Source: Laspinema palackyanum D2a
Lineage (GTDB): Bacteria; Cyanobacteriota; Cyanobacteriia; Cyanobacteriales; Laspinemataceae
Direction of reading: 5' to 3'
Length of the DNA: 64,000 nucleotides
Assembly: GCA_025370845.1 (NCBI GenBank)
Contig: JAMXFF010000001.1
Span: forward strand, 62,001 to 126,000
In this document: positions 41,804 to 59,491 of the stretch, piece by piece
How the letters are laid out: each line of letters starts with the position of its first letter
Numbering within the stretch: position 1 is the first letter of the stretch
Notes under the pieces: generated by a model
Database searches by the model: none
Told to the model about the DNA's origin: nothing
What the model saw: only the letters and a program-made list of their open reading frames with translations
Translations under genes and position numbers: made by a program

Positions 41804-42244
41804 GTGACGACACAACAGGGATTTGGGAAAGTGCAACCGCGCAAGAAAACCGGCAAAGGCACCGCCAAGCGGGAAGAGGCTGCACAGAAGTATGAGAAAA
41901 TGAAAGAAGGGGAAATGCCCGAATTTCATATTTTCATGCGGATACAAGGCAAAAAAAACTGGTTTCCCGTGGGTTCATTGATGGTGAATCGGACCAGTAA
42001 GATTAATCAAGCGATTTTTGACACCGAGGAAGAGTTGCGAGAAGGCGGATTTCGGTTGTTTCCCATTCTGCGAAAAAATCAACAGAATTTGGAATATGGG
42101 TATCGCTTAAAAGGAAAAGAATATGCGGAAGACCCCATCGAATTGGCGGTCCGTCCTCCAGAAAAACAGCCGAATTTTATCCAAGGTGCGATCGCCAAGT
42201 TGAAAGAGAGTTTTTCCGGAAACCGCAACTCAGAGGCCAGTTGA
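41804..42244 (+). CDS. HHL1-like protein
   Basis: A 146-residue soluble protein. The first 35 residues are basic and flexible. The core reads MPEFHIFMRIQGKKNWFPVG, then FDTEEELREGGFRLFP and LEYGYRLKGKEYAEDP. From memory this matches the conserved cyanobacterial and plant HHL1 family; the Arabidopsis member is a thylakoid protein needed for photosystem II protection under high light. No transmembrane segment is visible here. The start is GTG at 41804 with GGAGGA seven bases upstream. The assignment rests on recalled family character, not a search. Confidence 0.6.
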   Translation: MTTQQGFGKVQPRKKTGKGTAKREEAAQKYEKMKEGEMPEFHIFMRIQGKKNWFPVGSLMVNRTSKINQAIFDTEEELREGGFRLFPILRKNQQNLEYGYRLKGKEYAEDPIELAVRPPEKQPNFIQGAIAKLKESFSGNRNSEAS

Positions 42245-42267
42245 AAGGCGTTCAGGCAATTGAAGTA

Positions 42268-42299
42268 GGATGGGGTTTTCCTACGGAATATCCCCATCC
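42268..42299. terminator. Hairpin between convergent genes
   Basis: GGATGGGG (42268-42275) pairs with CCCCATCC (42292-42299) between the end of the HHL1-like gene and the end of the exonuclease-FtsK gene. The stem is short and the loop large, so the call is tentative. Confidence 0.35.
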
Positions 42300-42306
42300 C
42301 TACCGA

Positions 42307-44898
42307 TTAGGATAAATCAATCCTGGAAGCAAATAAGCTTTGCAATCGATGTAGCTGGGAACCCATTTGATAGAGTAAATCTCCTTTACCCAAAAGATAA
42401 GCAGCGGAGGTTTCTTGTCCGCCTAAAATAATGCTGGAGTCGGCTTCACTGGCAGTTCGCAGGGCAATTCTTCCGGGCAAATTTGAGCGAATAATCGGTG
42501 TAACCACCTTAGCTTCTGGGCGTTGGGTGGCAATAATCAGATGAATTCCTGCTGCTCTTGCCATTGCGCCGAGTCGTTTAATGCTGAGTTCGAGGTCCGT
42601 GCGAATTTCTTTTTCTGCCATAAAGTCGGCATATTCATCAAAAATGCAGACAATCCGGGGTAAGGGATTTTGGGCTTTGCGGTTATAGGAGGTAATATCA
42701 TTACAGCCTGCGGATTCAAATTTGCGATAGCGAGTTTCCATGTCACAGACGAGTTCCGCCATCAGGGCGATCGCCTGTTCGCTTTCTTTGACAATCGGTG
42801 ACAGCAACCAGGGCATTCCTTCAAATTCAGGAAAGGTCACACGCTTGGGGTCTACTAAGGCAATTTTCAGGTGACTGGGTTGATTGCGGTGGAGAAGACT
42901 CAACAGCAGCGATCGCAAAAATTCACTTTTTCCGCTTCCCGTTGTACCGCCTACCAAAAAGTGGCAGGTATTGGGGTCCGATAAATCCGCTTCTATTAAG
43001 TTGCCATCTAAATCAATGCCAACGGCAATTTTTACCGGAGCATCCGCTGGATTTTGTTGGCGATGAATGTAATGGGAAAATTCCGCAGTTTGGCGATCGC
43101 CTCGGGGTAAATCCACACTCACATATCCCGCTTGGGGGGCAATTAAAGGAGCAACAGGAATCCCTAATTGCACCTGCAAATCCGCTGATAATTTTAAAAT
43201 CGAGGCGACTTTTATTCCCGGCGCGGGTTTGAGTTTGACCCGGATAAAAGCCGGACCAATGGCTGCGCCTAAGTAATCCACATTAATTTTAAAAGATTTG
43301 AGCGTATCCGTCAATTGCTGCCCGATCGCATCTGCATTTTGGGTGGGTTTGGGGACGGGAGTTTGGGGCGGAGTCAGGGGGGGTTTTAGGGCGGGGGGAG
43401 GAGAGTTGAGGGGAGGCGAATCCACGGCAACGGGACTGGATTCAAAAAATGTTTGACACTTCTGCTGTTGCGGACATATTTCGCATAAGTGAGCTTGGGG
43501 AGTGGGCGGGGGTGGATTGGGATGGGAGGGTTCCCAGCGCAACCAGTCCCGCATTTGTTGGAGTTTATGGGGAATCAGTTGATGCACTGTGGGTTCTAAT
43601 TCTTCCCAAGTATAGCGATATTCTTTAAATTCCGGTAAAACACAGTAAACCGCTGAATCCACCGGGCAGTTTCTCTGTTGCTTGAGCATATAACTATACA
43701 AGGCAACCTGGGCGAGTTGAGCGCTCAGATCTGCCGTTTGATAGGTTTTATACTCCACGGCACAGAGGCGATCGCCTTGCCCATGCATAATCAGATTATC
43801 CACCTGTCCTTTCACCAATTGCCGAGTGCGATCGGGTAAATCGAATTGATAATTAAGGCTAAATTCCCGGGCAATAAAAGTTTTCGCCAGCACAGAATCC
43901 GCCGAATAAAATTGACGATTCGTGACTAATAATTCCGCATATCGTTGGATTAGTCCTTTTAATCCCAGCCAAATTTGGTTGAGGGCCGGTAGTTTATGCG
44001 GATCCGCTTGCATCGTGGATTGGAGATAGGGATAAAACCGCAAATCATAAAAGCGGTTTTGCATTTGTTGGGCGAGGGTGTTGGCATTCAGTTTAGGCGG
44101 GGAATCCGTGAGAAACTCGGTAAATTCTGGCGCTTCTAAGATTAAGGAAACAAATTGCTTGGCGAGTTCGTGGAACGGGTTACCAATGCCGAAAGTATTG
44201 GGGGTGGGAATAAACATCGTCATCTTCCCAAACTTCTGTCCGAGATAAAATAACCGGGGACATTCAAATGCCACGCGCACATTAGTCGCCGTCAAAGATT
44301 TGGGGTCAGAGGATTCTGATTTAGGCATAGTGACAATCGGGGGGATTGGGGAGGGCTTAGGTTCAGTAAATTGTCTTAATTTTAGATAAACTTGGGCTAA
44401 ATAGACCGTATCCATCTTGGCATATCTTAATTGCCGTTGACTGAGGGGGCGCTGTCCCCAGTCGCTGGATTGTTCTTCGGTATGGATATCAGAAAATTGG
44501 CAGAGTTCGGCGGCGAGGGTTTTGAGTTTTAAGTTGGAAACCCCGAGGCGATCGCGTTTCAATTGTCTGGCCCATTTTAAGGTACAGGTGACATTCTGGG
44601 ACTGAGATTTTCCCAAAAATTTTAAATCATAACTAGCATTATGAAAGACTTTTTCAATGTTAGGATTAGCCATGATTTTGCCAATAAAATCCTGGACTAA
44701 TTCCCGTTTCTCCAACACATCCAGAATATAGGCAAACTCTCCAGTACAGTCCGTTTCCTGGGCCAGAACTTGAATCAGAGAAAGTCTCGGAACAGGAGTA
44801 TGCCAATCCGCGACTTCCGTATCAATCCACAGAATCGGATGAGCAGTGAATTGGGCAATGGCAGATTGAATCTCAGCGGTTCGAGTCAAATAGAACAT
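42307..44898 (-). CDS. Exonuclease / Cas4-like nuclease / FtsK translocase fusion
   Basis: An 863-residue protein with three enzymatic parts. Residues 1-180 are a DEDDy exonuclease (D26, E28; N87 and D91 in HNASYD; Y159 and D163). Residues about 203-485 are a RecB/Cas4-type nuclease: D367, E382 and K384 (VDNLIM, VEYKTYQ), the QxxxY motif at 397-401, and four cysteines for an Fe-S cluster, C213 plus C472-x2-C475-x5-C481. After a Pro-rich linker, residues about 525-863 are FtsK-like: the beta domain (IRVKLKPAPGIKVASI, VSVDLPRGDRQT) and motor with Walker A GGTTGSGKS (650-658) and Walker B CIFDEYADF. The DNA-reading gamma domain and membrane segments of housekeeping FtsK are absent. It follows ATPase 1 by 101 bases and probably shares its transcript. 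It looks like a DNA-pumping nuclease; target unknown. Confidence 0.85.
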   Translation of the reverse strand: MFYLTRTAEIQSAIAQFTAHPILWIDTEVADWHTPVPRLSLIQVLAQETDCTGEFAYILDVLEKRELVQDFIGKIMANPNIEKVFHNASYDLKFLGKSQSQNVTCTLKWARQLKRDRLGVSNLKLKTLAAELCQFSDIHTEEQSSDWGQRPLSQRQLRYAKMDTVYLAQVYLKLRQFTEPKPSPIPPIVTMPKSESSDPKSLTATNVRVAFECPRLFYLGQKFGKMTMFIPTPNTFGIGNPFHELAKQFVSLILEAPEFTEFLTDSPPKLNANTLAQQMQNRFYDLRFYPYLQSTMQADPHKLPALNQIWLGLKGLIQRYAELLVTNRQFYSADSVLAKTFIAREFSLNYQFDLPDRTRQLVKGQVDNLIMHGQGDRLCAVEYKTYQTADLSAQLAQVALYSYMLKQQRNCPVDSAVYCVLPEFKEYRYTWEELEPTVHQLIPHKLQQMRDWLRWEPSHPNPPPPTPQAHLCEICPQQQKCQTFFESSPVAVDSPPLNSPPPALKPPLTPPQTPVPKPTQNADAIGQQLTDTLKSFKINVDYLGAAIGPAFIRVKLKPAPGIKVASILKLSADLQVQLGIPVAPLIAPQAGYVSVDLPRGDRQTAEFSHYIHRQQNPADAPVKIAVGIDLDGNLIEADLSDPNTCHFLVGGTTGSGKSEFLRSLLLSLLHRNQPSHLKIALVDPKRVTFPEFEGMPWLLSPIVKESEQAIALMAELVCDMETRYRKFESAGCNDITSYNRKAQNPLPRIVCIFDEYADFMAEKEIRTDLELSIKRLGAMARAAGIHLIIATQRPEAKVVTPIIRSNLPGRIALRTASEADSSIILGGQETSAAYLLGKGDLLYQMGSQLHRLQSLFASRIDLS

Positions 44899-44999
44899 TA
44901 GCTAATCGGGTGAAGGTGGGTGACGGGTTTCCCTCAAAGGGTGTTGAAAGCCACTACAAAGAACAATTCTAGGCTATTTAATCGGCAATCGGTTTGGGC

Positions 45000-47015
45000 C
45001 TAGACTTGCGGCACCCGAGAGATGAATTGGCTCTTGGGATCGTTTAGGGGACCGATTAAATCAATTTTTCTTTCCTGAATCAGTTCATCAATCAATTGAT
45101 TGAGTCGTTCTGGAGAAATCGTATCAAACTTAGCATGAGCATTGTCTATCGCCGTCTCTCGTCCTAGCAAATGTTGATTAATGACCATATTTAAAATAAA
45201 GTCTTTGGCGTCTAAATTTTGGGGGGCAGCCTCTGGTTGACTTGGGTCAGAATCAGTTTTCGGAGTAGCAGGAACAATGCCTAAATCTTGCAATAAGATA
45301 CATCCATGCAAAATCTCCGTTTCTCGGATTAGTTCCTGCAACCGGGTCAGGGAGATCTCTTGATCCGCAATTACCAATTCTCCCGCGAGGGCTTCTTTAA
45401 CTAGGGTGTAATAAGTGGCGAGATAGTGCAGGGAGTCGAGATGGGGGGTGATATGACGATGGGGAGACCCCGTAAACAGTTCTTTAAACAGTTTATATCC
45501 TTTGAGTTTAGATTCTCCCACTTTTTCAGCGCGGATTAAATAAACCGGAGTTTTCGGATGCTGTTCTATGATGCGACGACAGGCATCCATCACAAAGAAA
45601 AAAGTTTTCATGTTCGGGTCTTCACTCCAAACCACCCCAATCGATTCCGATTCCCCACTGAGTTGATAGGAAAAGGAATAACTGGCTAATTTGTCGCTCA
45701 GTAAAAATTTCGGGGCAACGGGTAAGCGCAATGCCTCCATCGCCGTTTGTAACATTTGAATCCGCTCCGGTGCTGAAAAGTAACTAATTTTAGCCACTTT
45801 TTTGTGAGTCTTTTTAAACTCTTCAACCCAGAGTAATTTCAAGCCGGAACCATAATCTGCCGGGGGGGCCGGTTGCCCAATTTTATAGGTTTCAATCAGT
45901 TGCCGACCCAGGTGCAACACTGAGCGAGGAGTAGTCTTACTCCCACTGGGAAATTTTTCTTCTAAGTCTTGGCGAGTTAAGGGATAAATTGGCGAAAGGG
46001 GTTGAATGCTAACTTGTTGATGCAGGGGATAAAGACGATTTGCCCAGATGGCTTCGGCTTCATCCAAACCAATTCGTTTGAGAAAAATAAATTTATGAAT
46101 TCCCGCTCTATCAGAGTTTTGAATTCGTTGTACTAAAGTTTTCCAACTATTTTTCACCATGTTAATAATAATTAAAAAATTTGTGATTCCCTCCAGATGG
46201 AGTCGAGTATTCAGACTCAACAAAGGTTGCAAATTCAAAGACCCTCCCGACCCCATGCCTACCAACTCCACATTATCTAAACATAAAACAATGGGTTGAG
46301 TTTCCGTAGATATTTTTCCCAAATTCGCTAAGATTTCCCAAGCGGCTTCTTCACTTTCGATGGAACGTTTTAATTTCAGGTCTTGGAGAGAATCTTCACT
46401 TAAATCATCCCCGCGCAACCACTCGCAGGCGGTGGGATAGAGTTCCGGGTTGGTGAGATCATACAAAATCCCAAAAAAACTATCCGCTTGGGCAATTCCG
46501 AGGGATTGATAGGTTTTTTTGAGGTGGGTGATAAATTTTTTACGATTACTTTGGAGTAAGGTCCAGACTTGATCATCAAAAATTCGCTGTTTTAGGGAAC
46601 GATTGGTGAAGGCAGACAAACTTTTGAGCCAAAGCATGAGTTGGGAATCGGTTTCCCCTTCTGGAACCTGCATGAGACTATCAACAGTGTGGCGCAGGAG
46701 ATGCCGTCTCATCCATTCATGGTCAGACCAAGGGGGAATGTAGGCAAAAAAGGCTTTAGGTTTCAAAGTCTTTTTGAGGCGACCTAAGAGATAACTTTTG
46801 CCCGAACCCGAATCCCCCAATAGCATAATCGTCCGGCTATGATGGTCCTGGGCCATTTGGTCCACCAAGGTTTCAATCTCAACCATTGCCTCTTTGTGAA
46901 TCGAATCGACGGTGAGTGATGCTTCTTGGTTTTCTCTCCAAAAGTTTCCCGTTTTAAATGAAATCGGGTCGAAGGGGTTAACCGATCTTTGAATAATTGT
47001 CTCTATAGATACCAT
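45000..47015 (-). CDS. Large P-loop ATPase, family copy 1
   Basis: A 671-residue protein that I cannot place in a named family. It opens with SVNPFDPISFKTGNFW, shared almost unchanged with the genes at 50.5 and 52.7 kb. Walker A is GDSGSGKS (67-74) and Walker B is PIVLCLDNVE (241-250), followed by an arginine-containing sensor-like region. This order suits an AAA+ or STAND type ATPase. The C-terminal 70 residues (LLGRETAIDNAHAKFDTISPERLNQLIDELIQE) read as a winged helix. The middle of about 200 residues (YSFSYQLSGESESIGVVW, VYLIRAEKVG) may be a further domain. It lies 57 bases after the small winged-helix partner and upstream of the exonuclease-FtsK fusion. Confidence 0.75.
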   Translation of the reverse strand: MVSIETIIQRSVNPFDPISFKTGNFWRENQEASLTVDSIHKEAMVEIETLVDQMAQDHHSRTIMLLGDSGSGKSYLLGRLKKTLKPKAFFAYIPPWSDHEWMRRHLLRHTVDSLMQVPEGETDSQLMLWLKSLSAFTNRSLKQRIFDDQVWTLLQSNRKKFITHLKKTYQSLGIAQADSFFGILYDLTNPELYPTACEWLRGDDLSEDSLQDLKLKRSIESEEAAWEILANLGKISTETQPIVLCLDNVELVGMGSGGSLNLQPLLSLNTRLHLEGITNFLIIINMVKNSWKTLVQRIQNSDRAGIHKFIFLKRIGLDEAEAIWANRLYPLHQQVSIQPLSPIYPLTRQDLEEKFPSGSKTTPRSVLHLGRQLIETYKIGQPAPPADYGSGLKLLWVEEFKKTHKKVAKISYFSAPERIQMLQTAMEALRLPVAPKFLLSDKLASYSFSYQLSGESESIGVVWSEDPNMKTFFFVMDACRRIIEQHPKTPVYLIRAEKVGESKLKGYKLFKELFTGSPHRHITPHLDSLHYLATYYTLVKEALAGELVIADQEISLTRLQELIRETEILHGCILLQDLGIVPATPKTDSDPSQPEAAPQNLDAKDFILNMVINQHLLGRETAIDNAHAKFDTISPERLNQLIDELIQERKIDLIGPLNDPKSQFISRVPQV

Positions 47016-47072
47016 GCCTGAAATTACCTAATGCGAAGGGGTACAAATGCCAACAAGTAAGACCGTCAAAGA

Positions 47073-47909
47073 CTAGAAATATGTGATAAAAAATAGCGGG
47101 CATCCGATATCTTGGTGAATGCCTGCGTTGATTTGTTCATCACTGTAGGGGTTTGTGTCCACTAAAGAACTCAACTCAATTTTATCGTCGCCTTCCAATC
47201 GATAGAGGGCTTGATCCAATTCCGGGCGGGATAGAGGGGGTTGAAGTTTCTGGCGCAGGTGAAAAATGGGTAAATAATTGTCCGTTGCTAATTCTTGGTC
47301 TAAAGCCCGAATCAGTTGCAAAATATCTTCATCACTGGGCTTTTTCGTCGGGACTGGGACGGCAGTTTCTGATGCAGGAGAAGTCTGGGGTAAAGCGGCT
47401 TTTTCTGATGGGTAAACTTTGCGGAGGAACCGGAGATAGTCCGTCAGCATTTTGAGGGTAATAGTAGAGGTACTGTTAGACTCCAACTCATCGCGTAAAA
47501 ATTCTTTTCCTCGTTCCGTCAGCCAAACTTCTTTAAATTTCTTATCAATGATTTTAATAAATCCCCGGGCGGCTAAACTTTGAATGACCGCTTGTCGCTG
47601 ATCCGCAGCAACCCCCGTTTGTCCGGGGGAAATGCTGCCTTTAGCTGTAGCTTTTAGGACTTTTAATTCTTGTTCAGAGATTGGCAAGGTAGTGGGGTCG
47701 GCTTGAAGTAGGGATTTTCCCGGAGGGGCGATCGCCAATTTTTGGATTTCTTCCGTACAATCAACTAGCCCGCGTTCAATCAGTTGACGACCGATGCGAT
47801 CGCGTTCTGAGGCTTTCATTTTCGGGGTAGGCTCAACTTTGGTAATGGAGGTCCGATAATCCGGAACTCCCAATAACTTCAACAGAAATTTGAGTTCTTT
47901 TACATCCAT
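47073..47909 (-). CDS. Winged-helix-like partner protein, copy 1
   Basis: A 278-residue protein starting MDVKELKFLLKLLGVPDYR. Its paralogue at 54845-55699 begins in the same way (MEVQELKFLLDLLGFPDYR), which decides the start at 47909 over a codon 16 residues upstream. Several helix-rich segments look like tandem winged helices (VIQSLAARGFIKIIDKKFKEV, WLTERGKEFLRDE). The C-terminal domain NYLPIFHLRQKLQPPLSRPE is nearly the same in both copies. It has no catalytic motif that I can see. In both places it is the first gene before a member of the same ATPase family, so it is probably an adaptor or DNA-binding partner of the ATPase. Confidence 0.7.
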   Translation of the reverse strand: MDVKELKFLLKLLGVPDYRTSITKVEPTPKMKASERDRIGRQLIERGLVDCTEEIQKLAIAPPGKSLLQADPTTLPISEQELKVLKATAKGSISPGQTGVAADQRQAVIQSLAARGFIKIIDKKFKEVWLTERGKEFLRDELESNSTSTITLKMLTDYLRFLRKVYPSEKAALPQTSPASETAVPVPTKKPSDEDILQLIRALDQELATDNYLPIFHLRQKLQPPLSRPELDQALYRLEGDDKIELSSLVDTNPYSDEQINAGIHQDIGCPLFFITYF

Positions 47910-47957
47910 AAGTTCACCCGTCCCTTGCCCAGAATAACAACTACCTAAATTTATCAT

Positions 47958-48184
47958 GGCGCGATTTGACCCCGGATGCTTGTTTTTTTTACAAAACTTT
48001 AGAAATTGGCAAGGGTCCTGTCCCGAGTCTTGTTTTAAAATCCGCTAACGGGTGGAGTCTTCAACAGAACAAAGTCTATCCCTGGAGTTTGTTAATAAAT
48101 ATTAAGCGATCGGTCGGACTTCACCGGGAATCAGGTAAGATATAAAACAATTCCATAAGGTACCGGATTACCCGGGTAAACCCC
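47958..48184. promoter_or_regulatory. Divergent promoter region between partner 1 and the ParA fusion
   Basis: About 230 AT-rich bases separate the divergent starts at 47909 and 48185. It contains an octo-T run near 47983-47990 and TTAATAAATATTAAGCGATC near 48090-48109. Both transcription units of the locus would start here, which allows shared control; no specific operator is identified. Confidence 0.45.
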
Positions 48185-49666
48185 TTGAGTTTCCATCCAG
48201 ACCTTTGCCGAAACGAGAGCGAAGTCGAAAGTAAACTAATCGTCAGTTACTTGTTGCCAGCATTAGGGTACACCCCCGAAAGTTGGCATCAAGAAGTTGC
48301 CTTTATTTCCATTCGGTTAGGTTTCTTAGCCTTCAATAGCCCAGCCATCCCCTTCGTCCTCGATGCGAATTCGCCCATGAGGGTTCTCATAGAGGCCAAA
48401 AGTCCCAAACAAAACCTAGACAGACACCGGAGAAAGTTTAAGCGCTATTTAACGAAATTACAGGTTAAATATGGAGTCCTCACGAATGGCAATGAAATGC
48501 GGATTTATGAACGAGTGGGGGAAGCAATTGATCTGGTTTTTCAATGTTTGGGACAAGAAATTGAGGTCAGAATTGAAGAAATAAATGCCTTGATTGGCAA
48601 AGATAGCAGTAAACCTAGACAAACCCTAGCTTCAACGGCTACAGACTCTAATTCCCCTCAAATTAACGCCGAGTCAATTCCTGAGCAAGCATCTGAAAAA
48701 ATCCCTTTTTCCATCCCGTTTCCCGAGGAATTATTTCCAGAAACTCCCATTGATACCGAACCCGTGGTTGAGCCAAATTCTAATACCAAGAGGAAATCTA
48801 CGTTGAAAGTAATTGCTGTTTATCATAACAAAGGCGGCGTTGGAAAAACGACGGTTGCAGTCAACTTAGCTGCCGCCCTCAGAAAAAAGGGGAAAAAGGT
48901 TCTGTTAGTTGATATAGATGCTCAATCTAATTCAACTTTTGCGACAGGATTAATGAAGTTTTTCTTTGAAGAAGATGATAATTTAATGGCTAACAATATT
49001 TACCATCTTTTGGAAACAGGAGATTTTTCTTTTGTACCCGACGTTTCTCGAAAATCAGAGGGTTTTAATAATCCAGAAATTGAGGTAATACCTTCTCATA
49101 TTACCCTAATTGAAGGGCAATTTAAATTGAATACAATAGGGGCCAGCAAAACTCGGTTGGTTACCAAGTTAAGCCGAGTAGAAAAAGAATATGATTTTGT
49201 AATTATAGATACCCCTCCCTCGCGGGATTTATATGCAGAAGTAGCATTGATTGCTGCGGATCATCTGATTATTCCGTCTGATTTGAAACCTTTTGCTAAC
49301 CAAGGGTTACCCAGTGTTCTTCAGTTTATCAGCCAAGTTAATGAGTTTCGAGAGATGATTGGAAAAGAACCACTTAATATTTTGGGAGTCTTACCTTCTA
49401 AAATTTCACCGAACCCCAAATTTTTGCAATATACTTTTCCCAAACAAACAAGTGTTATTTCTGCACGGTATCACCTGAATCTAATGGAAACAATTATTTA
49501 TGAACGAACAATCCTTTCCCAATGTACTAATTATACGGTTCCAATGGGAGACTTAGACGTACCTGAACCTAAATCAATATTGGAATATGCACCTGATTCT
49601 TTATCATCGGGTGAATTTGAAGCCTTAGCCCTAGAAGTATTAACAAAAACAGGAATAAACCGATGA
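48185..49666 (+). CDS. HsdR_N-type nuclease domain fused to ParA-family ATPase
   Basis: A 493-residue protein. Residues 1-140 resemble the N-terminal nuclease domain of type I restriction R subunits: ESEVESKLIVSYLLPALGY at the start, D60, then E70 and K72 in VLIEAKSP, and VKYGVLTNGNEMRIYE. After a Pro/Glu-rich linker, residues 205-490 form a ParA/MinD-type ATPase with the deviant Walker A KGGVGKTT (216-223), VLLVDIDAQSNS and FVIIDTPPS. The start is TTG; no other start fits because a stop codon lies 13 codons upstream and the nuclease domain needs the N-terminus. Its stop overlaps the next gene (ATGA). A nuclease-like domain on a ParA is unusual and suggests DNA surveillance or targeted segregation. 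Confidence 0.8.
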   Translation: MSFHPDLCRNESEVESKLIVSYLLPALGYTPESWHQEVAFISIRLGFLAFNSPAIPFVLDANSPMRVLIEAKSPKQNLDRHRRKFKRYLTKLQVKYGVLTNGNEMRIYERVGEAIDLVFQCLGQEIEVRIEEINALIGKDSSKPRQTLASTATDSNSPQINAESIPEQASEKIPFSIPFPEELFPETPIDTEPVVEPNSNTKRKSTLKVIAVYHNKGGVGKTTVAVNLAAALRKKGKKVLLVDIDAQSNSTFATGLMKFFFEEDDNLMANNIYHLLETGDFSFVPDVSRKSEGFNNPEIEVIPSHITLIEGQFKLNTIGASKTRLVTKLSRVEKEYDFVIIDTPPSRDLYAEVALIAADHLIIPSDLKPFANQGLPSVLQFISQVNEFREMIGKEPLNILGVLPSKISPNPKFLQYTFPKQTSVISARYHLNLMETIIYERTILSQCTNYTVPMGDLDVPEPKSILEYAPDSLSSGEFEALALEVLTKTGINR

Positions 49667-50457
49667 TTTCTTTTTCCCTGGTAGATGTCAAAAGTATCGC
49701 TTCAACGGTGTCTCGATCAACTTTCCCGGAAACAGCCTTAGATAGCCTTTCCGATCTAATGTTAGAATGTGATGGACTTCTAAGACCTTTAGTCTTAAAA
49801 AGGACGGGAGTCGAAAGTTATACCGTAGTTGATGGGCATTTAGAATACTACGCTGCGGTTAGAGCTAGAGAAAAAAATCCTCGGAAAGGAGAAATGGTTT
49901 ATGCCTTTGTTTTTGCACCAAAAAATGAAGAAATTATCCTCAAGCAAACGGAGTTATTAAAGAGTTTTGGAGAATCCAAGTCCAATCAAGGGGTTAAAGA
50001 GTCACCCGTTCAAGCAACAATTCAACCTAATCAGGAAGTTCTTAAAGATTTACCCGTTCAAACGTCCATTCAACCGGATTTAGAAGCCCGATTCCTGAAT
50101 ATTGAAGTTAGAATTGACACTCGCCTCAATGAATTAAAAGCTGAATATTCTCAGAATCTTCAGAGAATTGAGGAAATGTTAGACCAAAAGGTAGAGGAAA
50201 GGGTCAAAGATATTGAAAGTCGGAATCCCAAACCTGCTCCTTTATTAGAATCTCTGAATAACTTAGAGTTGCCTGAACCCCAACTGTATTCGCGGTTGAG
50301 AAAGGCTGGAATCAATAAAAATATCATCGATAATATCATCAAAGAGCGAAACACAACGCCATTTGAACCCTTTGTCAATTTTGAAGACGTGATAGCCCGC
50401 ATTGATAAATTAGGTGATAAAACCATGATTAAAATGATTGATGGCTGGCAAAGGTAA
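49663..50457 (+). CDS. ParB-like protein with coiled coil
   Basis: A 264-residue protein translated from an ATG that overlaps the ParA stop codon. Residues about 35-75 (LLRPLVLKRTG, YTVVDGHLEYYAAVRAREKN) match the ParB/sulfiredoxin-type N-terminal fold. However, the CTP-binding GERR box of true ParB is replaced by DGHLEY, so CTPase activity is doubtful. A coiled coil follows (LNELKAEYSQNLQRIEEMLD). The C-terminus (LYSRLRKAGINKNIIDNII) could be a helix-hairpin-helix DNA-binding module. The partner ParA fusion suggests a centromere-binding or adaptor role. Confidence 0.7.
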   Translation: MISFSLVDVKSIASTVSRSTFPETALDSLSDLMLECDGLLRPLVLKRTGVESYTVVDGHLEYYAAVRAREKNPRKGEMVYAFVFAPKNEEIILKQTELLKSFGESKSNQGVKESPVQATIQPNQEVLKDLPVQTSIQPDLEARFLNIEVRIDTRLNELKAEYSQNLQRIEEMLDQKVEERVKDIESRNPKPAPLLESLNNLELPEPQLYSRLRKAGINKNIIDNIIKERNTTPFEPFVNFEDVIARIDKLGDKTMIKMIDGWQR

Positions 50458-50486
50458 GCCTATCTTGACCCTCTAATTTTTCAAAG

Positions 50487-50510
50487 AGTGGCAGGGTTTA
50501 AACTGCCACT
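50487..50510. terminator. Hairpin between convergent genes
   Basis: AGTGGCAG and CTGCCACT form an 8-bp stem with an 8-base loop between the ends of the ParB-like gene and ATPase copy 3. A T-run follows on the plus strand (GTTTTTAG). Probably a bidirectional terminator. Confidence 0.5.
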
Positions 50511-50514
50511 ATGT

Positions 50515-52566
50515 CTAGTTTTTAGCCTTCTTTCCCAAGGCTTCTAACACACAAACTAACTGGGCGGATTCGGGGACGGTTTCATCTAAAATAAATAGCT
50601 TATTTTCGGTGCAAAGCTGAAAGATTAACTCTTTCACTTGGTACTCTTGGACATCGGTAAATTGGTCTAAGGTATTCTGAATTAACACAGTTCGGCCCAT
50701 GATTTGCTGAGTGCGAACTAAGGCGAGTAGATACTCTTTGGCTTGCTTTAAGGCTTTGCTGCGATCGCCTGCGGGTCCGAGTTGTTTGGGTTTATTATCA
50801 CTGACTCCGATAATCCGGGTATATCCGGCAAACACCCCCAAGGTTTGTAACACCGGACATTCTTCTAAAATTTGGGCATGGCGAATCATTTCTTGTAATT
50901 CTTTTAAGTTCGGCGTGAGACTTCCCACGACTAATTCACTGGCACAAGCGGCGTTGACTAAGCTATGATAGGTTACCAAATAATGCACCGATACCATATC
51001 CGGCAAAATGTGGCGATGGGGATGTCCGGTAAAAATTTGGGAGTAGAGTTTATTTCCCAGGTTTTTGCGCGTTCCTAAGCGTTCAGCGCGAATTAAATAG
51101 AGGGTTTTGCAACGTTGCATAGTCAGGGCTTTTTCGCAGGCTTTCATGATATGATAAAAGCTAACTAGATTGGGGTCTTCTGTCCAGACAATCCCAATTC
51201 TTCCCAGTTGTGCGGGGAGGTGATAGCTGAGGGAATAACTGCCGTAGGTGGGACTGGGTAAGAGTTTTTGTTGAATCCCACTCACATTTAATGCTTCTAG
51301 GGCTTCTCGGACCATTTGCATCAATTCGGGGGCAGAAAATTGGCGCAGGCGGGTGATTTTATCCTGGGTTTTATTAAATTCCTTGACCCAAACGAGGTGA
51401 AAGGCGGCAGTGACTTCGTTGGGGGAAGGTGAGATGACAGTTTCGGTTTTTGTTCCCTCCTGCTGTTTTGCCTCTTGAAACAGTTGTCTTCCCAGGAGGA
51501 GGGTAAACCGAGGTAAGGTTTTCCCGCCGGGGAATTTTGCCTCTAAATCTTGTTCGGTGATGGGATAGATGGGGGATGGGGGGGGAGTTTGGGAGAGTTG
51601 GTGTAAGGGATACAATCGCATCGCCAATAATCCGGCAGATTGATTGAGGTCGATCGCACTCAGGCGGATTTTTGTATCAATTCGGGCTAAATCCGCCGGT
51701 TGTATCCGTTTATAGTTTTGCTGCCAGGTATTGGTAATGATACTAATAATAATAACAAAATTTTTGAGTTTTTGGTTATGAATAATAGAATTAACATTAA
51801 ATAATGCCTGTAAATTAATTAATCCATCAATTCCTCGGTCAATATTATCTAAATTATCAAAACATAAAACCATCGGCTGAGTTGCCGAGGCAATTTTGCC
51901 AAAGTTTGATAAAACTTGCTGGGCGGCATTTTCGGAATCAATGGACCGTTTGACCCGCAACAGTTTTAAACTCGCTTCGTCCAAATCATCCCCTTTCAGC
52001 CATTCACAAGCGAGGGGATATAATTTGGGATTAGTTAAGTCATAGAGAACGCCAAAAAACTCATTGGCGTTATAGATTCCAGCGGGATAGGTTCCTTTTA
52101 ATTTGCGGATAAACAGTTGCCGTTCTCCGAATACCCGTTTCATGAGACTTCTATCTTGAAATACGGCTAATTCTTTTAACCAGAGTAACAGTTGGGATTC
52201 GGTTTGACCCTGGGGAACATACATCAAACTATCCAAGGTATTGCGGAGGGTATGCCGCCAAATAAAGTCACTTTCCGGCCAAGGTCCAATATAGGAAAAA
52301 AATGCTTTGGAATTGAGGGTACTTTTAATCCGTCCTAAGAGATAACTTTTTCCCGATCCCGAATCTCCCGAGAGGAGAATTGTCCGGGTCCGATGGTCTT
52401 GGGTGACGTTATCAACGACGGAGGTAATTTCCGTTAAGACTTCTTGATGAATGGAATCGACGGTAAAGGCCGAGTTTTGGTCTTCTTGCCAAAAATTGCC
52501 CGGTCTAAAGGTGGTGGAATCGAAGGGGTTAACGGATTCTTGAATAATGCGGTCAATAGATGCCAC
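50515..52566 (-). CDS. Large P-loop ATPase, family copy 3
   Basis: A 683-residue paralogue of the ATPases at 45.0 and 52.7 kb, with the shared opening SVNPFDSTTFRPGNFW, Walker A GDSGSGKSYLLG, Walker B PMVLCFDNLDNI and the conserved NEFFGVLYDLTNPKLYPLAC. The start is GTG at 52566, with GAGGAG six bases upstream, and aligns with the N-terminus of the other two. A TTG further upstream would add 28 unrelated residues. It is the second ATPase in the 55.7-to-50.5-kb operon, 90 bases after copy 2. It is closer to copy 2 than to copy 1, so copies 2 and 3 probably arose by a later tandem duplication. Function unknown. Confidence 0.75.
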   Translation of the reverse strand: MASIDRIIQESVNPFDSTTFRPGNFWQEDQNSAFTVDSIHQEVLTEITSVVDNVTQDHRTRTILLSGDSGSGKSYLLGRIKSTLNSKAFFSYIGPWPESDFIWRHTLRNTLDSLMYVPQGQTESQLLLWLKELAVFQDRSLMKRVFGERQLFIRKLKGTYPAGIYNANEFFGVLYDLTNPKLYPLACEWLKGDDLDEASLKLLRVKRSIDSENAAQQVLSNFGKIASATQPMVLCFDNLDNIDRGIDGLINLQALFNVNSIIHNQKLKNFVIIISIITNTWQQNYKRIQPADLARIDTKIRLSAIDLNQSAGLLAMRLYPLHQLSQTPPPSPIYPITEQDLEAKFPGGKTLPRFTLLLGRQLFQEAKQQEGTKTETVISPSPNEVTAAFHLVWVKEFNKTQDKITRLRQFSAPELMQMVREALEALNVSGIQQKLLPSPTYGSYSLSYHLPAQLGRIGIVWTEDPNLVSFYHIMKACEKALTMQRCKTLYLIRAERLGTRKNLGNKLYSQIFTGHPHRHILPDMVSVHYLVTYHSLVNAACASELVVGSLTPNLKELQEMIRHAQILEECPVLQTLGVFAGYTRIIGVSDNKPKQLGPAGDRSKALKQAKEYLLALVRTQQIMGRTVLIQNTLDQFTDVQEYQVKELIFQLCTENKLFILDETVPESAQLVCVLEALGKKAKN

Positions 52567-52656
52567 GGCGGACTCCTCAGTGAGAGAATACAGGGTGTAA
52601 TTAGGGTGTAATTTCGTCCAGAGGCGATCGCAGTCTTCAGGCGATCGCAATTGGAG

Positions 52657-54747
52657 TTATCGCTTCGAGTTGACCAAATAGACTAACTGATCTTCCAGTT
52701 TTGCATCAGGATTGAGGATGGCAACTTCCGGATGATTTTCGCACAGATGTTCAATTAAATGGTGCACTTGGGATTCGTTAATATGGGAAAATTGTGAAAT
52801 CGCTTCTTGAGATAACCGTTGGCGGGCCATACATTGTTGATTGATAGCCCGATTTAACAGAAAATCCTCCACAGGTTGCCACAATTCCCGCGTTGCTTCG
52901 CCGATGGGGAGACTCGGGACTAATTCTAATTCTTGCAGTAGGGGACAGTATTGCAAAATTTTGGATTCCCGAATCAGGGTTTGCAATTCGGTTAAATTGG
53001 GGGTGGCATTGCCAACAATTAAATCTCCGCCACAGGCATCATTGACTAAGCTGTGATAAGTGACTAAATAATGAACCGACAGTAAGTCGGGTTTGAGATG
53101 CTGATGACGAGACTTCCGGTAAATATCGCTATAGATTCTATATCCGGTATTGTTGGGATTGCCGATGCTTTCTTCGCGGATTAGGTGCAATTTGTGGCAT
53201 TGTTTCGCCGCGATCGCCTCTTGGCAGACTTTCATAAAATTGCAAAACTTCGTTAAATTGGCATCTTCACTCCAGGCAACCCCAACGGTTTCCGAAGTTC
53301 CCGGAAATTGATAGCTTAGGGAATAACTGCTATAAGTGCGACTATCCAGAAAGCGTAGCTTAACTTCTTGGACAGATAATGCTTCTAATGCTTCCCCTAG
53401 CATGGCGATTAATTCTGGGGAAGAAAACTGTCTGATTCGGGAAATTCTCTCCTGAGTTTGCGTAAATTTCCGCAACCATAACAACTTGAACGCTGCCAGC
53501 AAATCTGCTTTGGGTTCAGCAGTTGGAGGTAAACTGGGCGCTTCTGAAACATCGATCGCAGGTTCAGAGGAATGGGAGGTTTCCCGATCCATAACCTGGG
53601 TATATTCTACATCAATATACTCAACGCGATCGCGCATTAATTCTAACTTGTGGTCCTGAAATAACTGCCGTCCCAACATCAGGACATTTCGGGGACGAGT
53701 TTTCCCTCCAGGAAACTTATCCTCCAACTTTTCTCGGGTGAGGGGATACAAATTAGAAGGGGGTTGGGTGGCAGATTGACGATGCAAAATGGACAAACGA
53801 CTCGCCCAAAGCGCCTCCCCTTGATACAGACTAATTTGTTTGAGTTGAACGATCGCATCCAGTCGGTCCCTATCCGTTGCTTGGATGCGAAACGCATTTT
53901 GTTTCCAGGTATCGGTAATGATGCTAATCATCACCAGAAAGTTTTTTAATTTTTGGGTGTGAATGAGGGAATTGACACTAAATAAACTGGGTAAATCAAT
54001 GGACCCATCGGCTAATCGGGCAATATTATCTAATTGGTCAAAACAGAGAACAATCGGGAGAGTTTCAGCGGCAATTCTGCCAAAGTTGGCGAGAATTTTT
54101 TGGGCTGCATCTTCGCTGTCGATGGAATGTTGCACCCGGAGGATTTTTAGACTTTCTTCATCTAAATCATCCCCGCGTAACCATTCGCAGGCGAGACTAG
54201 AAAATTTAGGATTGGTCAAGTCATAGAGAACGCCAAAGAACTCATTGGCGTTATAAATTCCCGTGGGATAGTTATCTCTCAGATTCCGGATAAATACCTG
54301 GCGATCGCCACGAATCATATCCATGAGACTGCGATGTTCAAATTCCGATAACCCTTTCAACCACAAAATCAATTGGGAATCTTCTTCTCCCTCGGGAACT
54401 TCCAGTAAACTATCCACGGTGTACCGGAGAATATGCCGCCAAATATAGTCACTGGCGGTAAAGGGTTCGATATAAACAAAAAAGGCTTTGCGGTTGAGAA
54501 TTCGCTTGATTCTGCCTAATAAATAAGACTTGCCGGACCCGGTTTCACCTTCTAATAAAACAGTGCGAGTGCGATGGTCCTCGGCCACCTGATTGAGTAA
54601 GGTTTCGACTTGGGAAATAGCCTCTTGGTGGATAGAATCCACTGTAAAAGCAGGATTTTGTTTTTCTTGCCAAAAATTGCCAGACCAAAAGGTTTCGGCA
54701 TCAAAAGGATTCGGTTCACGTTGAATGATTTGTTCGAGTGTTGCCAT
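52657..54747 (-). CDS. Large P-loop ATPase, family copy 2
   Basis: A 696-residue member of the same family: PNPFDAETFWSGNFW, Walker A GETGSGKSYLLG, Walker B PIVLCFDQLDNIA, NEFFGVLYDLTNPKFSSLAC and WLRGDDLDEESLKILRV. A stretch near residue 390 (YIDVEYTQVMDRETSHSSEP) is an insertion missing from the other two copies. The C-terminal winged-helix-like end is present (ISQFSHINESQVHHLIEHLC). It follows the second partner gene by 97 bases; that gap contains a short run of heptamer repeats. No family name can be given from the sequence. Confidence 0.75.
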   Translation of the reverse strand: MATLEQIIQREPNPFDAETFWSGNFWQEKQNPAFTVDSIHQEAISQVETLLNQVAEDHRTRTVLLEGETGSGKSYLLGRIKRILNRKAFFVYIEPFTASDYIWRHILRYTVDSLLEVPEGEEDSQLILWLKGLSEFEHRSLMDMIRGDRQVFIRNLRDNYPTGIYNANEFFGVLYDLTNPKFSSLACEWLRGDDLDEESLKILRVQHSIDSEDAAQKILANFGRIAAETLPIVLCFDQLDNIARLADGSIDLPSLFSVNSLIHTQKLKNFLVMISIITDTWKQNAFRIQATDRDRLDAIVQLKQISLYQGEALWASRLSILHRQSATQPPSNLYPLTREKLEDKFPGGKTRPRNVLMLGRQLFQDHKLELMRDRVEYIDVEYTQVMDRETSHSSEPAIDVSEAPSLPPTAEPKADLLAAFKLLWLRKFTQTQERISRIRQFSSPELIAMLGEALEALSVQEVKLRFLDSRTYSSYSLSYQFPGTSETVGVAWSEDANLTKFCNFMKVCQEAIAAKQCHKLHLIREESIGNPNNTGYRIYSDIYRKSRHQHLKPDLLSVHYLVTYHSLVNDACGGDLIVGNATPNLTELQTLIRESKILQYCPLLQELELVPSLPIGEATRELWQPVEDFLLNRAINQQCMARQRLSQEAISQFSHINESQVHHLIEHLCENHPEVAILNPDAKLEDQLVYLVNSKR

Positions 54748-54764
54748 AAGAGTTTCTTTGGTAA

Positions 54765-54806
54765 GTGGTCATTGGTCATTAGTCATTGGTTGTTGGTCAT
54801 TAGGGG
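54765..54806. repeat. Heptamer tandem repeats between partner 2 and ATPase 2
   Basis: Units such as GGTCATT, AGTCATT and GGTTGTT occur in a row in the gap between two genes of the same operon. This is the same repeat class as at 41.7, 57.0 and 63.55 kb, here read from the other strand. Confidence 0.7.
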
Positions 54807-54844
54807 TGGTTTTTATGGGTTATGTCTGATGACCTATCTTTAAT

Positions 54845-55699
54845 TTATTGAGTTACAATAATAAAAAACAAAGGTCCGCCGATATCTTGGGGAATCCCCA
54901 ATTCTATTTGGTCCGGACTGTAAGAAATGGCCTCTTGTAAAGAACTTAACTCAATGCGATCATTCCGTTGTAAGCGATAGAGTGTGCGGTCAAACTCTTC
55001 TCGGGAGAAAGGGGGTTGTAACTTTTTGCGTAAATGAAAAATCGGCAAATAGTTATCCGTTGCTAATTCCCGGTCTAACTGCTGAATAAGGCGCACAATC
55101 TCATCATCGGATAACGGTTTAGGTGCAATCACCTCCGATGATGGCGGAGGGGTTGTTGCTGGGGATGAATGGGAGGAAACAGACTCTTCTGGCGATCGCA
55201 ATGATTTCCGCAAGAAGCGCAAATAATTCGTCAGCATATCCAAACTAACGACAGGTAACGTTCCACTGGGATTGTACTCTTCCCGGAGATATTCCTGTCC
55301 TCGGGCTGTCAACCAGACCTCGGTAATTTGGGTTTTTTCCGCCTTAATTAATCCCTTTTCTGCTAACCCTTGAATGACAGATTGCCCGGTTGCTGCCTCT
55401 AGGTTGGTTTGTGCTGGAGTGATGGTAGACTCAGCACAAGCCGTTAGAATGGCTACTTCTGCCTCAGCGATCGGCAAGCGGGTGGGGTCGAGTTGCAGCA
55501 GCGACTTTCCTGCGGGAGAAATCGCAAAGGCCAAAATCTCCTCCGCATATCCGACTAACTGGCGATCGGCGAGTGTACGACAGAGACTATCGCGTTCTGC
55601 CGCCTTGGTTTTCGGATTCGGTTTAATCTGGGTGATGGCGGCCCGATAATCGGGAAACCCTAGTAAATCTAGCAGAAACTTGAGCTCCTGCACTTCCAT
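54845..55699 (-). CDS. Winged-helix-like partner protein, copy 2
   Basis: A 284-residue paralogue of the protein at 47073-47909. Both share the N-terminal ELKFLL, PDYR and K-A-x-ERD pattern, the middle GKSLLQ-DPT-LPI segment, a region of winged-helix appearance (WLTARGQEYLREEY), and the nearly identical C-terminal DNYLPIFHLRKKLQPPFSRE with RIELSSL. AGGGGGAG lies just before the ATG. It heads an operon with ATPases 2 and 3. The repeated order, partner first and ATPase second, in two places argues that the two proteins work together. Confidence 0.7.
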   Translation of the reverse strand: MEVQELKFLLDLLGFPDYRAAITQIKPNPKTKAAERDSLCRTLADRQLVGYAEEILAFAISPAGKSLLQLDPTRLPIAEAEVAILTACAESTITPAQTNLEAATGQSVIQGLAEKGLIKAEKTQITEVWLTARGQEYLREEYNPSGTLPVVSLDMLTNYLRFLRKSLRSPEESVSSHSSPATTPPPSSEVIAPKPLSDDEIVRLIQQLDRELATDNYLPIFHLRKKLQPPFSREEFDRTLYRLQRNDRIELSSLQEAISYSPDQIELGIPQDIGGPLFFIIVTQ

Positions 55700-57807: not shown

Positions 57808-58243
57808 TTGAGGGGAAAACTTTATCAGCCTGTATAGAAAGGGTCAAGGGGTTGCTTTGCCTAGTCCAGGGGGACAAGATTCGATGAACCGGACAAGAAA
57901 CCGGGGTTATATCCTAGAGGGGTTAGGGACTGCTACAGATTTTGTCAAGAAACCCAGTTGTCTTGGCGATAAAATACCCCCGGACTCGGATAGGGAGGTG
58001 CAATCAGTGGGATAATTCCAGAAGCGTCTTTTTAGAGAGAATATTCAGGGTCATTCGGGAAGTGTCCCAACGGGAATGATTTAGACTCGATATAGCAAAC
58101 CAATCGGTTTGATGGCGATGCAGTTCCATCACCGGCATTGATAGCCGAATTTAAGGAGAAACCGGATAGAAGGAGAAGCGGGAATCACCTATGTTATCGT
58201 TTGATTATTATAGTAGTTTACCGGATTAAGGGCTCATGATTGT
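57808..58243. other. Intergenic region, no gene seen
   Basis: A 436-base gap. Two AGAAACC-type repeats lie at about 57892-57905 (AAGAAACCGGGG) and 57949-57962 (AAGAAACCCAGTTG). The remainder shows no gene or clear RNA. The promoter of the glycosyltransferase gene should be in the AT-rich part near 58195-58235. Confidence 0.45.
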
Positions 58244-59491
58244 ATGAAAATTTTAATGATATCTTGCACCTTTCCTTATCCACCCACACTCGGGGGAACC
58301 CATGTGAGGACCTTTAACTTAATGAAATATCTGAGTCAGCACCATCATGTCATCTTAGTGACGCAGCGATCGCCCGATGTCACCGATGCGGAAGTGGAAC
58401 GGTTGCGGGATTGGGTGCAAGATGTGGCGATTTTCCCCCCTCCGGGTGCAAGTGCAGGACAAGGCAGTTTAGGAAAAGTGAAGCGCTTTGCCAAATTTCT
58501 GAGTCAAGGAACACCGCCAAACGTCCTGTCCCGGTACTCGCCAAAAATGCAGCATTGGGTGGATCATTATGTGGAATCAGTGATGGCTAAAGGTCAGAAT
58601 TCAGAATTTGCCATTACCTGCGAGCATAGTGTGAACGAGATTTATGTCCGTCCCGAGTGGTCCAAAGCGATCGCCAGTGTGGTAGATATCCATAGTTCGG
58701 TGTATGGAACCTGTCGGCAACTTCTGGAAACCAACACCTCAGAAAATACCCTACGCGATCGCCTGCAACTCCCCCTCTTGCAAAAGTATGAACAACGCTA
58801 CTGTTCTAAATTCTCCGGGGTTGTCGTCACCACAACAGACGACCAACAGCAAATCAAAGACTTAAATCCCGATGCCAAAATTTCCGTTATCCCCAATGGC
58901 GTAGATTTAGAAATGTTTCCCGTTCGCGAGATGGACCCTGGGGGACATCGCCTCGCCTTTGTGGGGGCGATGGATATCTTAGCCAATATTGATGCCGTCC
59001 GATTTTTAGCCTTAGAAGTCTTTCCCTTAATCCGCCTGCGGTATCCTGATGCTACCCTGGCCCTCGTGGGCTCCCGACCCGTGGCCGAAGTCCAGGAGTT
59101 AGCAAACCAACCCGGAGTGACCGTGACAGGTCAGGTCCCATCGATCGCCGAATATTTGCACCAAGCGACCGTCTGCGTGATTCCCATGCGAACCGGATAT
59201 GGTATTAAAAATAAAACCCTAGAAGCAATGGCCGCAGGAACCCCCGTGGTTGCCAGCGATCGCGGATTAGAAGGGTTAACCGTGGATGGACCCAACGTCC
59301 CCTTACGCGCATTACGCGCCAAGGAAGTCAACGAATATGTGACTGAAATCGGGCGTTTATTTGAAGATCGACGTCTGCGAGACCAATTATCCGTGAATGC
59401 CCGACGACTGGTAGAACGGGATTATACCTGGGAAGTAGCAGGAAGTCGCTACTCCAGCTTATTAAGCGAGTTATCCGCCAGCAAATCCTGA
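58244..59491 (+). CDS. Family 4 glycosyltransferase
   Basis: A 415-residue GT-B fold protein starting MKILMISCTFPYPPTLGG, followed by HVRTFNLMKYLSQHHHVILV. The C-terminal nucleotide-sugar domain has ISVIPNGVDLEMFP, RLAFVGAMD and the E-x7-E motif (EAMAAGTPVVASDRGLEGL). It resembles the PEP-CTERM/exopolysaccharide-associated sugar transferases. It would add a sugar to a lipid-linked or surface glycan; the donor is unknown. It stands alone, although GDP-mannose dehydratase (37.3 kb) shows that surface sugar synthesis is encoded nearby. Confidence 0.88.
   Translation: MKILMISCTFPYPPTLGGTHVRTFNLMKYLSQHHHVILVTQRSPDVTDAEVERLRDWVQDVAIFPPPGASAGQGSLGKVKRFAKFLSQGTPPNVLSRYSPKMQHWVDHYVESVMAKGQNSEFAITCEHSVNEIYVRPEWSKAIASVVDIHSSVYGTCRQLLETNTSENTLRDRLQLPLLQKYEQRYCSKFSGVVVTTTDDQQQIKDLNPDAKISVIPNGVDLEMFPVREMDPGGHRLAFVGAMDILANIDAVRFLALEVFPLIRLRYPDATLALVGSRPVAEVQELANQPGVTVTGQVPSIAEYLHQATVCVIPMRTGYGIKNKTLEAMAAGTPVVASDRGLEGLTVDGPNVPLRALRAKEVNEYVTEIGRLFEDRRLRDQLSVNARRLVERDYTWEVAGSRYSSLLSELSASKS

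Follow-up and report, generated by a model that had tools for sequence, protein, structure and literature searches.

What does an FtsK-type DNA motor fused to two nucleases do beside a partition-like gene pair and three related ATPases? The question is raised by a locus of the filamentous cyanobacterium Laspinema palackyanum D2a, within a stretch of 64,000 nucleotides that was analysed as a whole (hereafter the window) and lies on contig 44 of genome G000 (7.4 Mb, Laspinema type). Three gene groups make up the locus: module I (42307-47909, minus strand), in which a winged-helix partner (PartA) and an ATPase (ATPa) precede an exonuclease-RecB-FtsK effector; module II (50515-55699, minus strand), which consists of a second partner (PartB) and two ATPases (ATPc and ATPb) and has no nuclease; and, between them on the plus strand, an HsdR_N-ParA/ParB pair. 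Our best explanation, to which we give a probability of roughly 60%, is that module I belongs, in cyanobacterial form, to the predicted HerA/FtsK capture anti-invader systems of the Orc/Cdc6 type, and that the pair is a separate, largely alternative nuclease module. An earlier note on the window had described eight genes, their order and their domains, and this description was confirmed: all eight genes were found at or close to the positions it gave.

Distribution of module I

The gene order of module I goes beyond chance because it recurs in many genomes with conserved catalytic residues, and the possibility that the genes are neighbours only in this genome, which the earlier note had allowed for, falls away. 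Strong matches, by a threshold set for this analysis, were obtained in a sample of 194 cyanobacterial genomes for the ATPase in 25, for the partner in 25, and for the RecB part of the effector in 21, with ATPase and partner occurring together in 24. Raw tallies at E 0.001 were 42, 31, and 22, respectively, and weak rows were left out, among them G087 (RecB 6.5e-5, with no ATPase or partner row). All 21 genomes with a strong RecB part also have a strong ATPase and a strong partner, as the note had expected of a true system, and the three genes adjoin in 19 of them, the window included. A small open reading frame (ORF) separates ATPase and FtsK genes in G131, the partner is cut by a contig end in G155, and the nuclease-FtsK gene lies elsewhere on the same contig as the ATPase and partner in G051 and G101. 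Across 388 genomes of the order, the RecB part is matched at 1e-10 in 126, some of them RecB-only proteins or remnants, and 262 are without a match. These results support a real, recurrent, and patchily distributed partner-ATPase-nuclease-FtsK system.

Module I is accessory, as its absence from a syntenic site in three congeners and its occurrence on a plasmid show. Among eight genomes of the window's genus, the RecB part is present in G000, G269, G283, and G306, and was not found in G241, G295, G345, or the less complete G354. By blastn, G241, G295, and G345 lack the segment from 42220 to 48080 or 48087 and have 102-104 base pairs in its place, with both flanking gene sets kept. The plasmid copy, a cassette minus the exonuclease, is carried by the conjugative plasmid pPSE7367.01 (NC_019690.1) of Pseudanabaena. 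Parts of the cassette also differ sharply between close relatives: in G149 and G153, which belong to one genus, ParA is 91% identical, the nuclease-FtsK protein 90%, the partner 80%, and the ATPase 49%, with partner identity dropping to 72% and then 52% in the last two segments compared. From these alignments the ATPase and the tail of the partner seem to have been replaced as one unit, which points to contact between the two proteins.

The exonuclease-RecB-FtsK effector

The effector of module I has 863 residues and joins an exonuclease (about 1-180), a RecB part (about 200-490), and FtsK alpha and motor domains (about 515-863). Pfam assigns DNA_pol_A_exo1 (2.5e-26), FtsK_alpha (PF17854, 4.4e-11), and FtsK_SpoIIIE (PF01580, 7.6e-39), with no FtsK gamma or membrane domain among its matches, and a PDB sequence search matches the DNA translocase FtsK 2iuu_A at 1e-54. 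The RecB part has no Pfam match; it is matched by PADLOC Cas4 models at 1.5e-7 and its relatives match PDDEXK_1. Cys213, Cys472, Cys475, Cys481, Glu382, and the FtsK Walker A and B residues are kept in all 21 aligned nuclease-FtsK proteins, Asp367 and Lys384 of RecB in 20 (the exception is L058, of G131), and the DEDDy residues 26, 28, 91, 159, and 163 in every row that reaches their region (19 or 20 of 21, L044 of G159 and the shortened L060 of G121 not reaching it fully). The four cysteines fit an iron-sulfur (Fe-S) RecB nuclease, which is predicted to be active from these residues. No second PF01580 protein was found at E 0.001 in G000, a genome rated 99.99% complete, so the protein of module I is not a second copy of a cellular FtsK.

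The effector varies while the partner and ATPase persist. Besides the three-part form, RecB-FtsK without DEDD occurs in G159 and on the Pseudanabaena plasmid, RecB alone follows partner and ATPase in G386, G438, G444, G431, and G456 (in the last with an intact frame), and TPR or DUF4145 domains are added N-terminally in G219 and G206. RecB is split off in G131, where a kinase and a degenerate remainder of RecB form part of the FtsK protein, and in G426, which has a separate kinase-protease gene and an ATPase also in two frames. Exceptions to the rule exist in G273 and G388, whose exonuclease-RecB protein lacks FtsK and has no partner or ATPase in the mapped stretch. Very distant partner-ATPase pairs, followed by a DUF1802 protein, are found in G193 and G042.

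ATPases and winged-helix partners

All 39 aligned ATPases share an NPF motif in the N-terminal part, the Lys of the P-loop, one Asp in Walker B, and an Arg close to where the AAA+ region ends. AAA_16 exceeds the Pfam cut-off in ATPb and ATPc and scores 9e-7, below the cut-off, in ATPa. A PDB sequence search with the ATPase alone gave nothing at E up to 1. Foldseek, used with the ATPase model, listed origin recognition complex and Cdc6/Orc1 chains first (probability up to 1.0) and then HslU chains, with a chain of the BrxC-BrxB-PglZ complex at rank 17. The model is confident in the C-terminal winged helix (598-670) and mostly not elsewhere; residues 446-495 form a strand-strand-helix-strand arrangement with a predicted local distance difference test (pLDDT) score mostly below 50, and no ExK was seen there by eye in the alignment. 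Going by the model, ATPa is provisionally an AAA+ ATPase of the Orc/CDC6 clade with a C-terminal winged helix-turn-helix (wHTH).

Matches of the partners to winged helices are weak and fall at two places in PartA, and one weak PADLOC match, to MkoB, was obtained (1e-4). None of 254 pattern matches for the ATPase in viral contigs was a true relative, and the partner query gave nothing in phage records; in viral contigs it matched with its C-terminal part only, inside long proteins of two contigs. These contigs, L067 (1073-4081, plus strand) and L068 (5341-15419, plus strand) of IMG/VR, encode very long proteins with copies of the partner's C-terminal winged helix, at least two of them in L067. 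The proteins possibly resemble tail tape-measure proteins, and the copies may be a mimic of the host partner.

Families f1 and f2 share the two ATPases of module II as an orthologous pair, with clade support of 100/100 and 100/97 in the tree, and in three genomes of a sister genus (G196, G228, and G329) modules I and II stand side by side without the ParA/ParB pair. Module II is proposed to be a related recogniser without an effector of its own.

The HsdR_N-ParA/ParB pair

The first gene of the pair matches AAA_31/ParA at 7e-52 and HSDR_N_2 at 1e-5, barely over the cut-off, and the Walker A motif of its ParA part is intact; the second has matches to ParB_N (0.004) and HHH_6 (0.0065) that fall short of the curated cut-offs. 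The pair is an independent two-gene unit whose ParB-like gene is found in 172 of the 388 genomes of the order, 147 of them without a RecB-part match. The ParB-like gene and the RecB part thus co-occur in 25 genomes against 55.9 expected (Fisher p 7e-12) and, in a hand count by genus, in 21 against 29.2 expected (p 0.008), both tests ignoring kinship. In at least 14 of these 25 genomes, no more than about 6 kb separates the pair from the RecB part; nine others have them at a greater distance or on different contigs, and G206 and G501, which have both genes, were left out of the distance and HsdR_N counts. In 11 of 14 maps the ParB gene and the last gene of a module converge, 3′ end to 3′ end (G273, G388, and G296 differ), and this arrangement recurs in families f1, f6, and f7. 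The RecB or FtsK gene is broken in G296 and G479, and an FtsK remnant adjoins the pair in G024.

Pair and cassette also use one site beside a chromosomal ParA, mostly in f6. This ParA was found at E 1e-50 in 60 of the 194 genomes and in 57 of 63 of the same order. Within the 194-genome sample, 10 genomes have the nuclease-FtsK gene up to about 5 kb from it and 8 others the ParB-like gene, with no genome having both there; all three occur together in G433 and G491, outside that sample. The evidence supports a non-random tie of the pair to the partner-ATPase-nuclease-FtsK system. Of the earlier picture of two modules arranged around a ParA/ParB pair, this tie stands; a fixed device does not, the sandwich being confined to the window's genus among the mapped loci.

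A plasmid partition role for the pair was considered and rejected, as 72,556 plasmid records contained no match (at E limits of 1e-30 for the ParA fusion and 1e-3 for ParB) and a search of the window with a parS consensus, allowing up to three mismatches, gave 0 matches. Among the congeners, the pair (48185-50457) exists as two divergent allele types at the same site, with ParA fusions about 63% and 83-85% identical to that of the window, and the genes flanking it are about 88-99% identical; divergent alleles amid similar neighbours look as if the pair had been swapped by recombination.

Loss of the ParA-linked nuclease

The HsdR_N active site (Asp46, Glu70, and Lys72) was inspected in 57 of 59 loci, L125 and L128 being set aside because contig ends cut the gene. 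Two loci from a scan of contigs with a single protein proved to be those of G283 (identical over 16,000 bases) and G306 (contigs of one length, the first 5,000 bases of L140 lying within L007) and were counted once. Beside the FtsK-nuclease, HsdR_N is intact in only one of seven cases (G283). Asp46 is replaced by Gly in G000, G269, and G306, the ExK being kept in the window copy; the distant copy of G255, which has no ParB match, has Glu70 changed to Lys and Lys72 to Thr; HsdR_N-ParA lies in two frames with the motif kept in G433; and the domain is gone in G491. The three Asp46 changes probably share one event, giving about four separate losses, and Asp46 persists in G295 and G345, two congeners without module I. 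Where the FtsK-nuclease lies elsewhere in the genome, HsdR_N is intact in three of five; it is truncated in G282, and the ParB-adjacent gene of G121 lacks the domain, a second, broken HsdR_N-ParA with the motif lying about 3 kb away. Where no RecB-FtsK fusion was detected, it is intact in 40 of 45 and missing in five, RecB-only genomes being classed by the fusion alone and a separate FtsK gene lying outside the search. The difference between adjacent and no fusion gives p 1.4e-4 in a comparison made after the pattern had been noticed.

Together with the reciprocal distribution, intactness in 1 of 7 against 40 of 45 suggests interchangeable nucleases of one surveillance machinery. A fuller version of this idea, offered tentatively and less likely than not, is that a single machinery takes alternative arms derived from DNA-segregation machines, either FtsK-DEDDy-RecB or HsdR_N-ParA/ParB; gain of the FtsK arm would make the ParA-linked nuclease redundant or harmful, its active site would be lost, and ParA/ParB would be kept for targeting or positioning.

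Gene map and neighbouring genes

Coordinates of the features are collected in Table 1. The start of PartA is more likely 47909, as relatives align from residue 17, and that of ATPb is uncertain between a TTG at 52650 and about 52575.

Table 1. Features of the locus, in window coordinates
Feature	Position	Strand	Basis or remark
Module I effector: DEDDy 3′-5′ exonuclease, Fe-S RecB/Cas4-like nuclease (predicted), and FtsK alpha/motor	42307..44898	-	Pfam, PADLOC, PDB sequence match, alignment
ATPa: Orc/Cdc6-like AAA+ ATPase with C-terminal winged helix (provisional)	45000..47015	-	AAA_16, Foldseek, alignment
PartA: winged-helix partner, module I	47073..47909	-	ORF opens at 47957; relatives begin at 47909
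HsdR_N (PD-(D/E)XK)-ParA fusion	48185..49666	+	Pfam, active-site alignment
ParB-like protein: ParB_N fold, coiled region, C-terminal helix-hairpin-helix	49663..50457	+	Two weak Pfam matches
ATPb: second Orc/Cdc6-like ATPase of module II	50515..52650	-	Pfam, alignment, tree
ATPc: first Orc/Cdc6-like ATPase of module II	52657..54747	-	Pfam, alignment, tree
PartB: winged-helix partner, module II	54845..55699	-	Sequence search, alignment
Presence/absence segment (module I)	42220..48080	.	blastn of window against L135, L136, and L137; right border 48081 or 48088

A stand-alone RNase D-like gene (38420-39355) lies 3 kb from the FtsK-nuclease gene and is kept in all six mapped congener loci, including the three without module I. 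The chromosomal ParA of G000 is found on contig 44 at 177248-178126, about 70 kb from the locus; elsewhere, in other families, it neighbours the cassette or the HsdR_N-ParA/ParB pair. A single open frame of 3696 codons occupies 18248-29338 on the minus strand (PADLOC scan only). The 23 further ORFs of the window gave PADLOC matches at 1e-10 only to Pycsar cyclase models (2.7e-30), a PD-T4-6 kinase model, and PDC-M43B; Pycsar-type cyclase domains are common in cyanobacteria.

Proposed function and alternative explanations

As an anti-invader system, module I would work in steps. The winged-helix partner and the Orc/Cdc6-like ATPase would probably recognise or encircle target DNA and probably load the effector, the third protein, onto it, after which the FtsK motor would draw the DNA along the two nuclease domains, Fe-S RecB and DEDDy exonuclease, which would degrade it. 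The HsdR_N-ParA/ParB pair would be a separate, nuclease-bearing module of partition type with a related task at these loci, which would make pair and module I largely alternatives. We infer defence as the likeliest purpose from the accessory distribution, the plasmid carriage, the exchange of cassette parts, and the published context.

Several observations weigh against this interpretation. The Walker B Asp is followed by Glu in four of 39 ATPases and by Gln or Asn in 35, and hydrolysis may be slow or absent because the motif is thus mostly D-N or D-Q instead of D-E. The Orc/Cdc6 fold matches come from a low-confidence model (query TM-score about 0.2, with HslU also listed); the models of ATPase and partner, built with AlphaFold from shallow alignments, have mean pLDDT values of 41 and 44, that of the partner being 41, and an inactive restriction endonuclease (REase) domain inserted in the ATPase is weakly supported. 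The earlier note had named patchy occurrence in defence islands as support for a system; the patchiness holds, and the test for islands was negative, the flanks showing no enrichment of PADLOC families (84 matched by 140 flank ORFs against 135 by 144 control ORFs at 1e-15, with 140 of 148 flank and 144 of 150 control ORFs used). In family f6 the cassette is found mostly next to ParA at a single conserved position on the chromosome, as would fit inheritance that is largely vertical in this family. To our knowledge, no functional assay exists for module I or for the predicted class.

Among other explanations, it is possible, if rather doubtful, that pair and cassette merely share an insertion hot spot with no functional link. 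In favour of such sharing, both are found next to the lone ParA, and no RecB part is matched in 147 of the 172 genomes carrying a ParB-like gene; the recurrence of the convergent arrangement in three families, the genome-wide depletion (25 against 55.9 expected), and the concentration of HsdR_N lesions beside the FtsK-nuclease argue for a link. A role in chromosome maintenance, one of two purposes offered in the earlier note, would make the effector a cyanobacterial stand-in for FtsK that clears or resolves DNA at division with ParA/ParB-like partners. It would suit the sole PF01580 protein found in a nearly complete genome, the place of the FtsK-nuclease beside a conserved chromosomal ParA in f6, and a review passage that names, besides HerA-clade relatives, a cyanobacterial FtsK homologue only in Anabaena, where it is plasmid-borne. 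A maintenance or housekeeping FtsK role is nevertheless improbable because congeners lack module I; 262 of the 388 genomes of the order also have no RecB-part match at 1e-10, one copy rides on a conjugative plasmid, and the protein carries two nuclease domains and, by Pfam, no membrane or gamma domain. The Anabaena plasmid FtsK was considered as a relative and set aside: plasmid FtsK proteins of related Nostocales match only about residues 523-861, at 36-40%, so the Anabaena protein is probably a different one; pCC7120beta itself was not among the best 40 of 390 plasmid records.

A machine for DNA-end processing or repair, like AddAB or archaeal HerA-NurA, could likewise be built from a Cas4/AddB-type Fe-S RecB joined to a translocase and a 3′-5′ exonuclease, but patchiness, a specific winged-helix partner, ATPase exchange among close relatives, and plasmid carriage would be unusual for core repair, and we regard this reading, too, as improbable. 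Module I might instead be a restriction arm that reads phosphorothioate marks, as DndFGH and SspFGH do. The trio follows the same logic (ATPase, wHTH protein, FtsK-ended effector), the best PADLOC match of the motor is SspH (4.6e-69, over the C-terminal part alone), weak matches to SspF (in 4 of 39, the strongest at 3.1e-5) or DndF (in up to 3 of 39, the strongest at 3e-5) occur among relatives of the ATPases, and the genome has DndB-, DndC-, and DndD-like genes on contig 54. Yet the window ATPases match DndF at the P-loop only, the partner has no DndG or SspG match, and the dnd genes are on another contig, which leaves this explanation quite improbable.

If the capture reading of module I is correct, the predicted anti-invader class gains a compact three-gene test case of 6 kb, for which a single genus offers natural counterparts with and without it, and the reciprocal pattern with HsdR_N-ParA/ParB would suggest that cyanobacteria employ partition proteins as restriction machinery. 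The annotation "DNA translocase FtsK" in cyanobacteria, as on the Pseudanabaena plasmid, may then mark a defence nuclease and not a divisome protein.

Comparison with known systems

Unlike cellular FtsK, the effector has only alpha and motor domains by Pfam, and its gene is not core, being absent from congeners. The pair resembles ParABS in the succession of a ParA ATPase and a ParB_N-fold gene; it differs in its HsdR_N fusion, in a ParB-like protein with no helix-turn-helix found by Pfam, and in having no parS in the window. The LG-R/K-GL motif quoted as ParA-binding in a passage of PMC12704722 was not seen by eye at the N-terminus of the ParB-like protein. BREX shares an Orc/Cdc6-like AAA+ ATPase (BrxC/BrxD) with module I; a PADLOC scan of 33 window proteins found no core BREX gene, only a BrxH match to exonuclease parts.

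SspFGH, in the passages describing it in PMC8092258, is likewise a set of three genes for a Walker-A protein, a second protein, and a large protein with an FtsK-like C-terminus, but the partner has no SspG match and the effector domains differ. DndFGH, as described in PMC10853773, similarly combines a P-loop protein, a multi-wHTH protein, and a nuclease-HerA/FtsK protein, but no DndG or DndH match was found. The partner matched neither DndG nor SspG at E up to 1, and beyond the P-loop matches to DndF no homology to DndF/SspF or DndG/SspG was found for the window proteins, though a remote kinship is conceivable. No dnd or ssp modification gene is among the 33 proteins scanned with PADLOC, ssp having been searched in the window only. 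Contig 54 of G000 holds DndD-, DndC-, and DndB-like genes and a second PbeC/DndD-like gene, at about 46686-51865 (L170) and 57941-60010 (L171), and a distant ATPase relative (26% identity) at 73986-75053.

The closest likeness is to the "HerA/FtsK capture" systems predicted by Rakesh, Aravind, and Krishnan (NAR 2024; PMC10853773), for which the anti-invader function is itself a prediction. As set out in the main text of that paper, their parts are an Orc/CDC6 ATPase whose wHTH is preceded by an inserted, inactive REase, a further REase that is active, a motor of the HerA/FtsK type (with FtsK-alpha in one set), in a subset a rapidly evolving protein with two to four wHTH domains, and sometimes a 3′-5′ exonuclease fused to FtsK. 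Module I has a provisional Orc/CDC6 ATPase, conserved nuclease residues, a PF01580 and PF17854 motor, an exonuclease-FtsK fusion, and a partner with weak wHTH matches at two places (pLDDT 41) whose C-terminus changes together with the ATPase. On these sequence features, the inserted REase and the number of wHTH domains in the partner aside, module I is filed as a variant of the predicted class, Orc/Cdc6 type, and not as a new kind of system; contrary to the earlier note, the locus is thus not undescribed in kind. The main text of PMC10853773 gives no match for "cyanobacter*" or "Cas4", its section 22 names no ParA/ParB partner, and its ParB passages concern DndB; a search by title and abstract, with subscription literature mostly outside it, found no earlier description of the cyanobacterial form or of the HsdR_N-ParA/ParB link. 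The locus differs from the systems as described there in placing the Fe-S RecB nuclease inside the FtsK protein and in the presence of a second, partner-ATPase-ATPase module, and the link of the system to HsdR_N-ParA/ParB is the new part.

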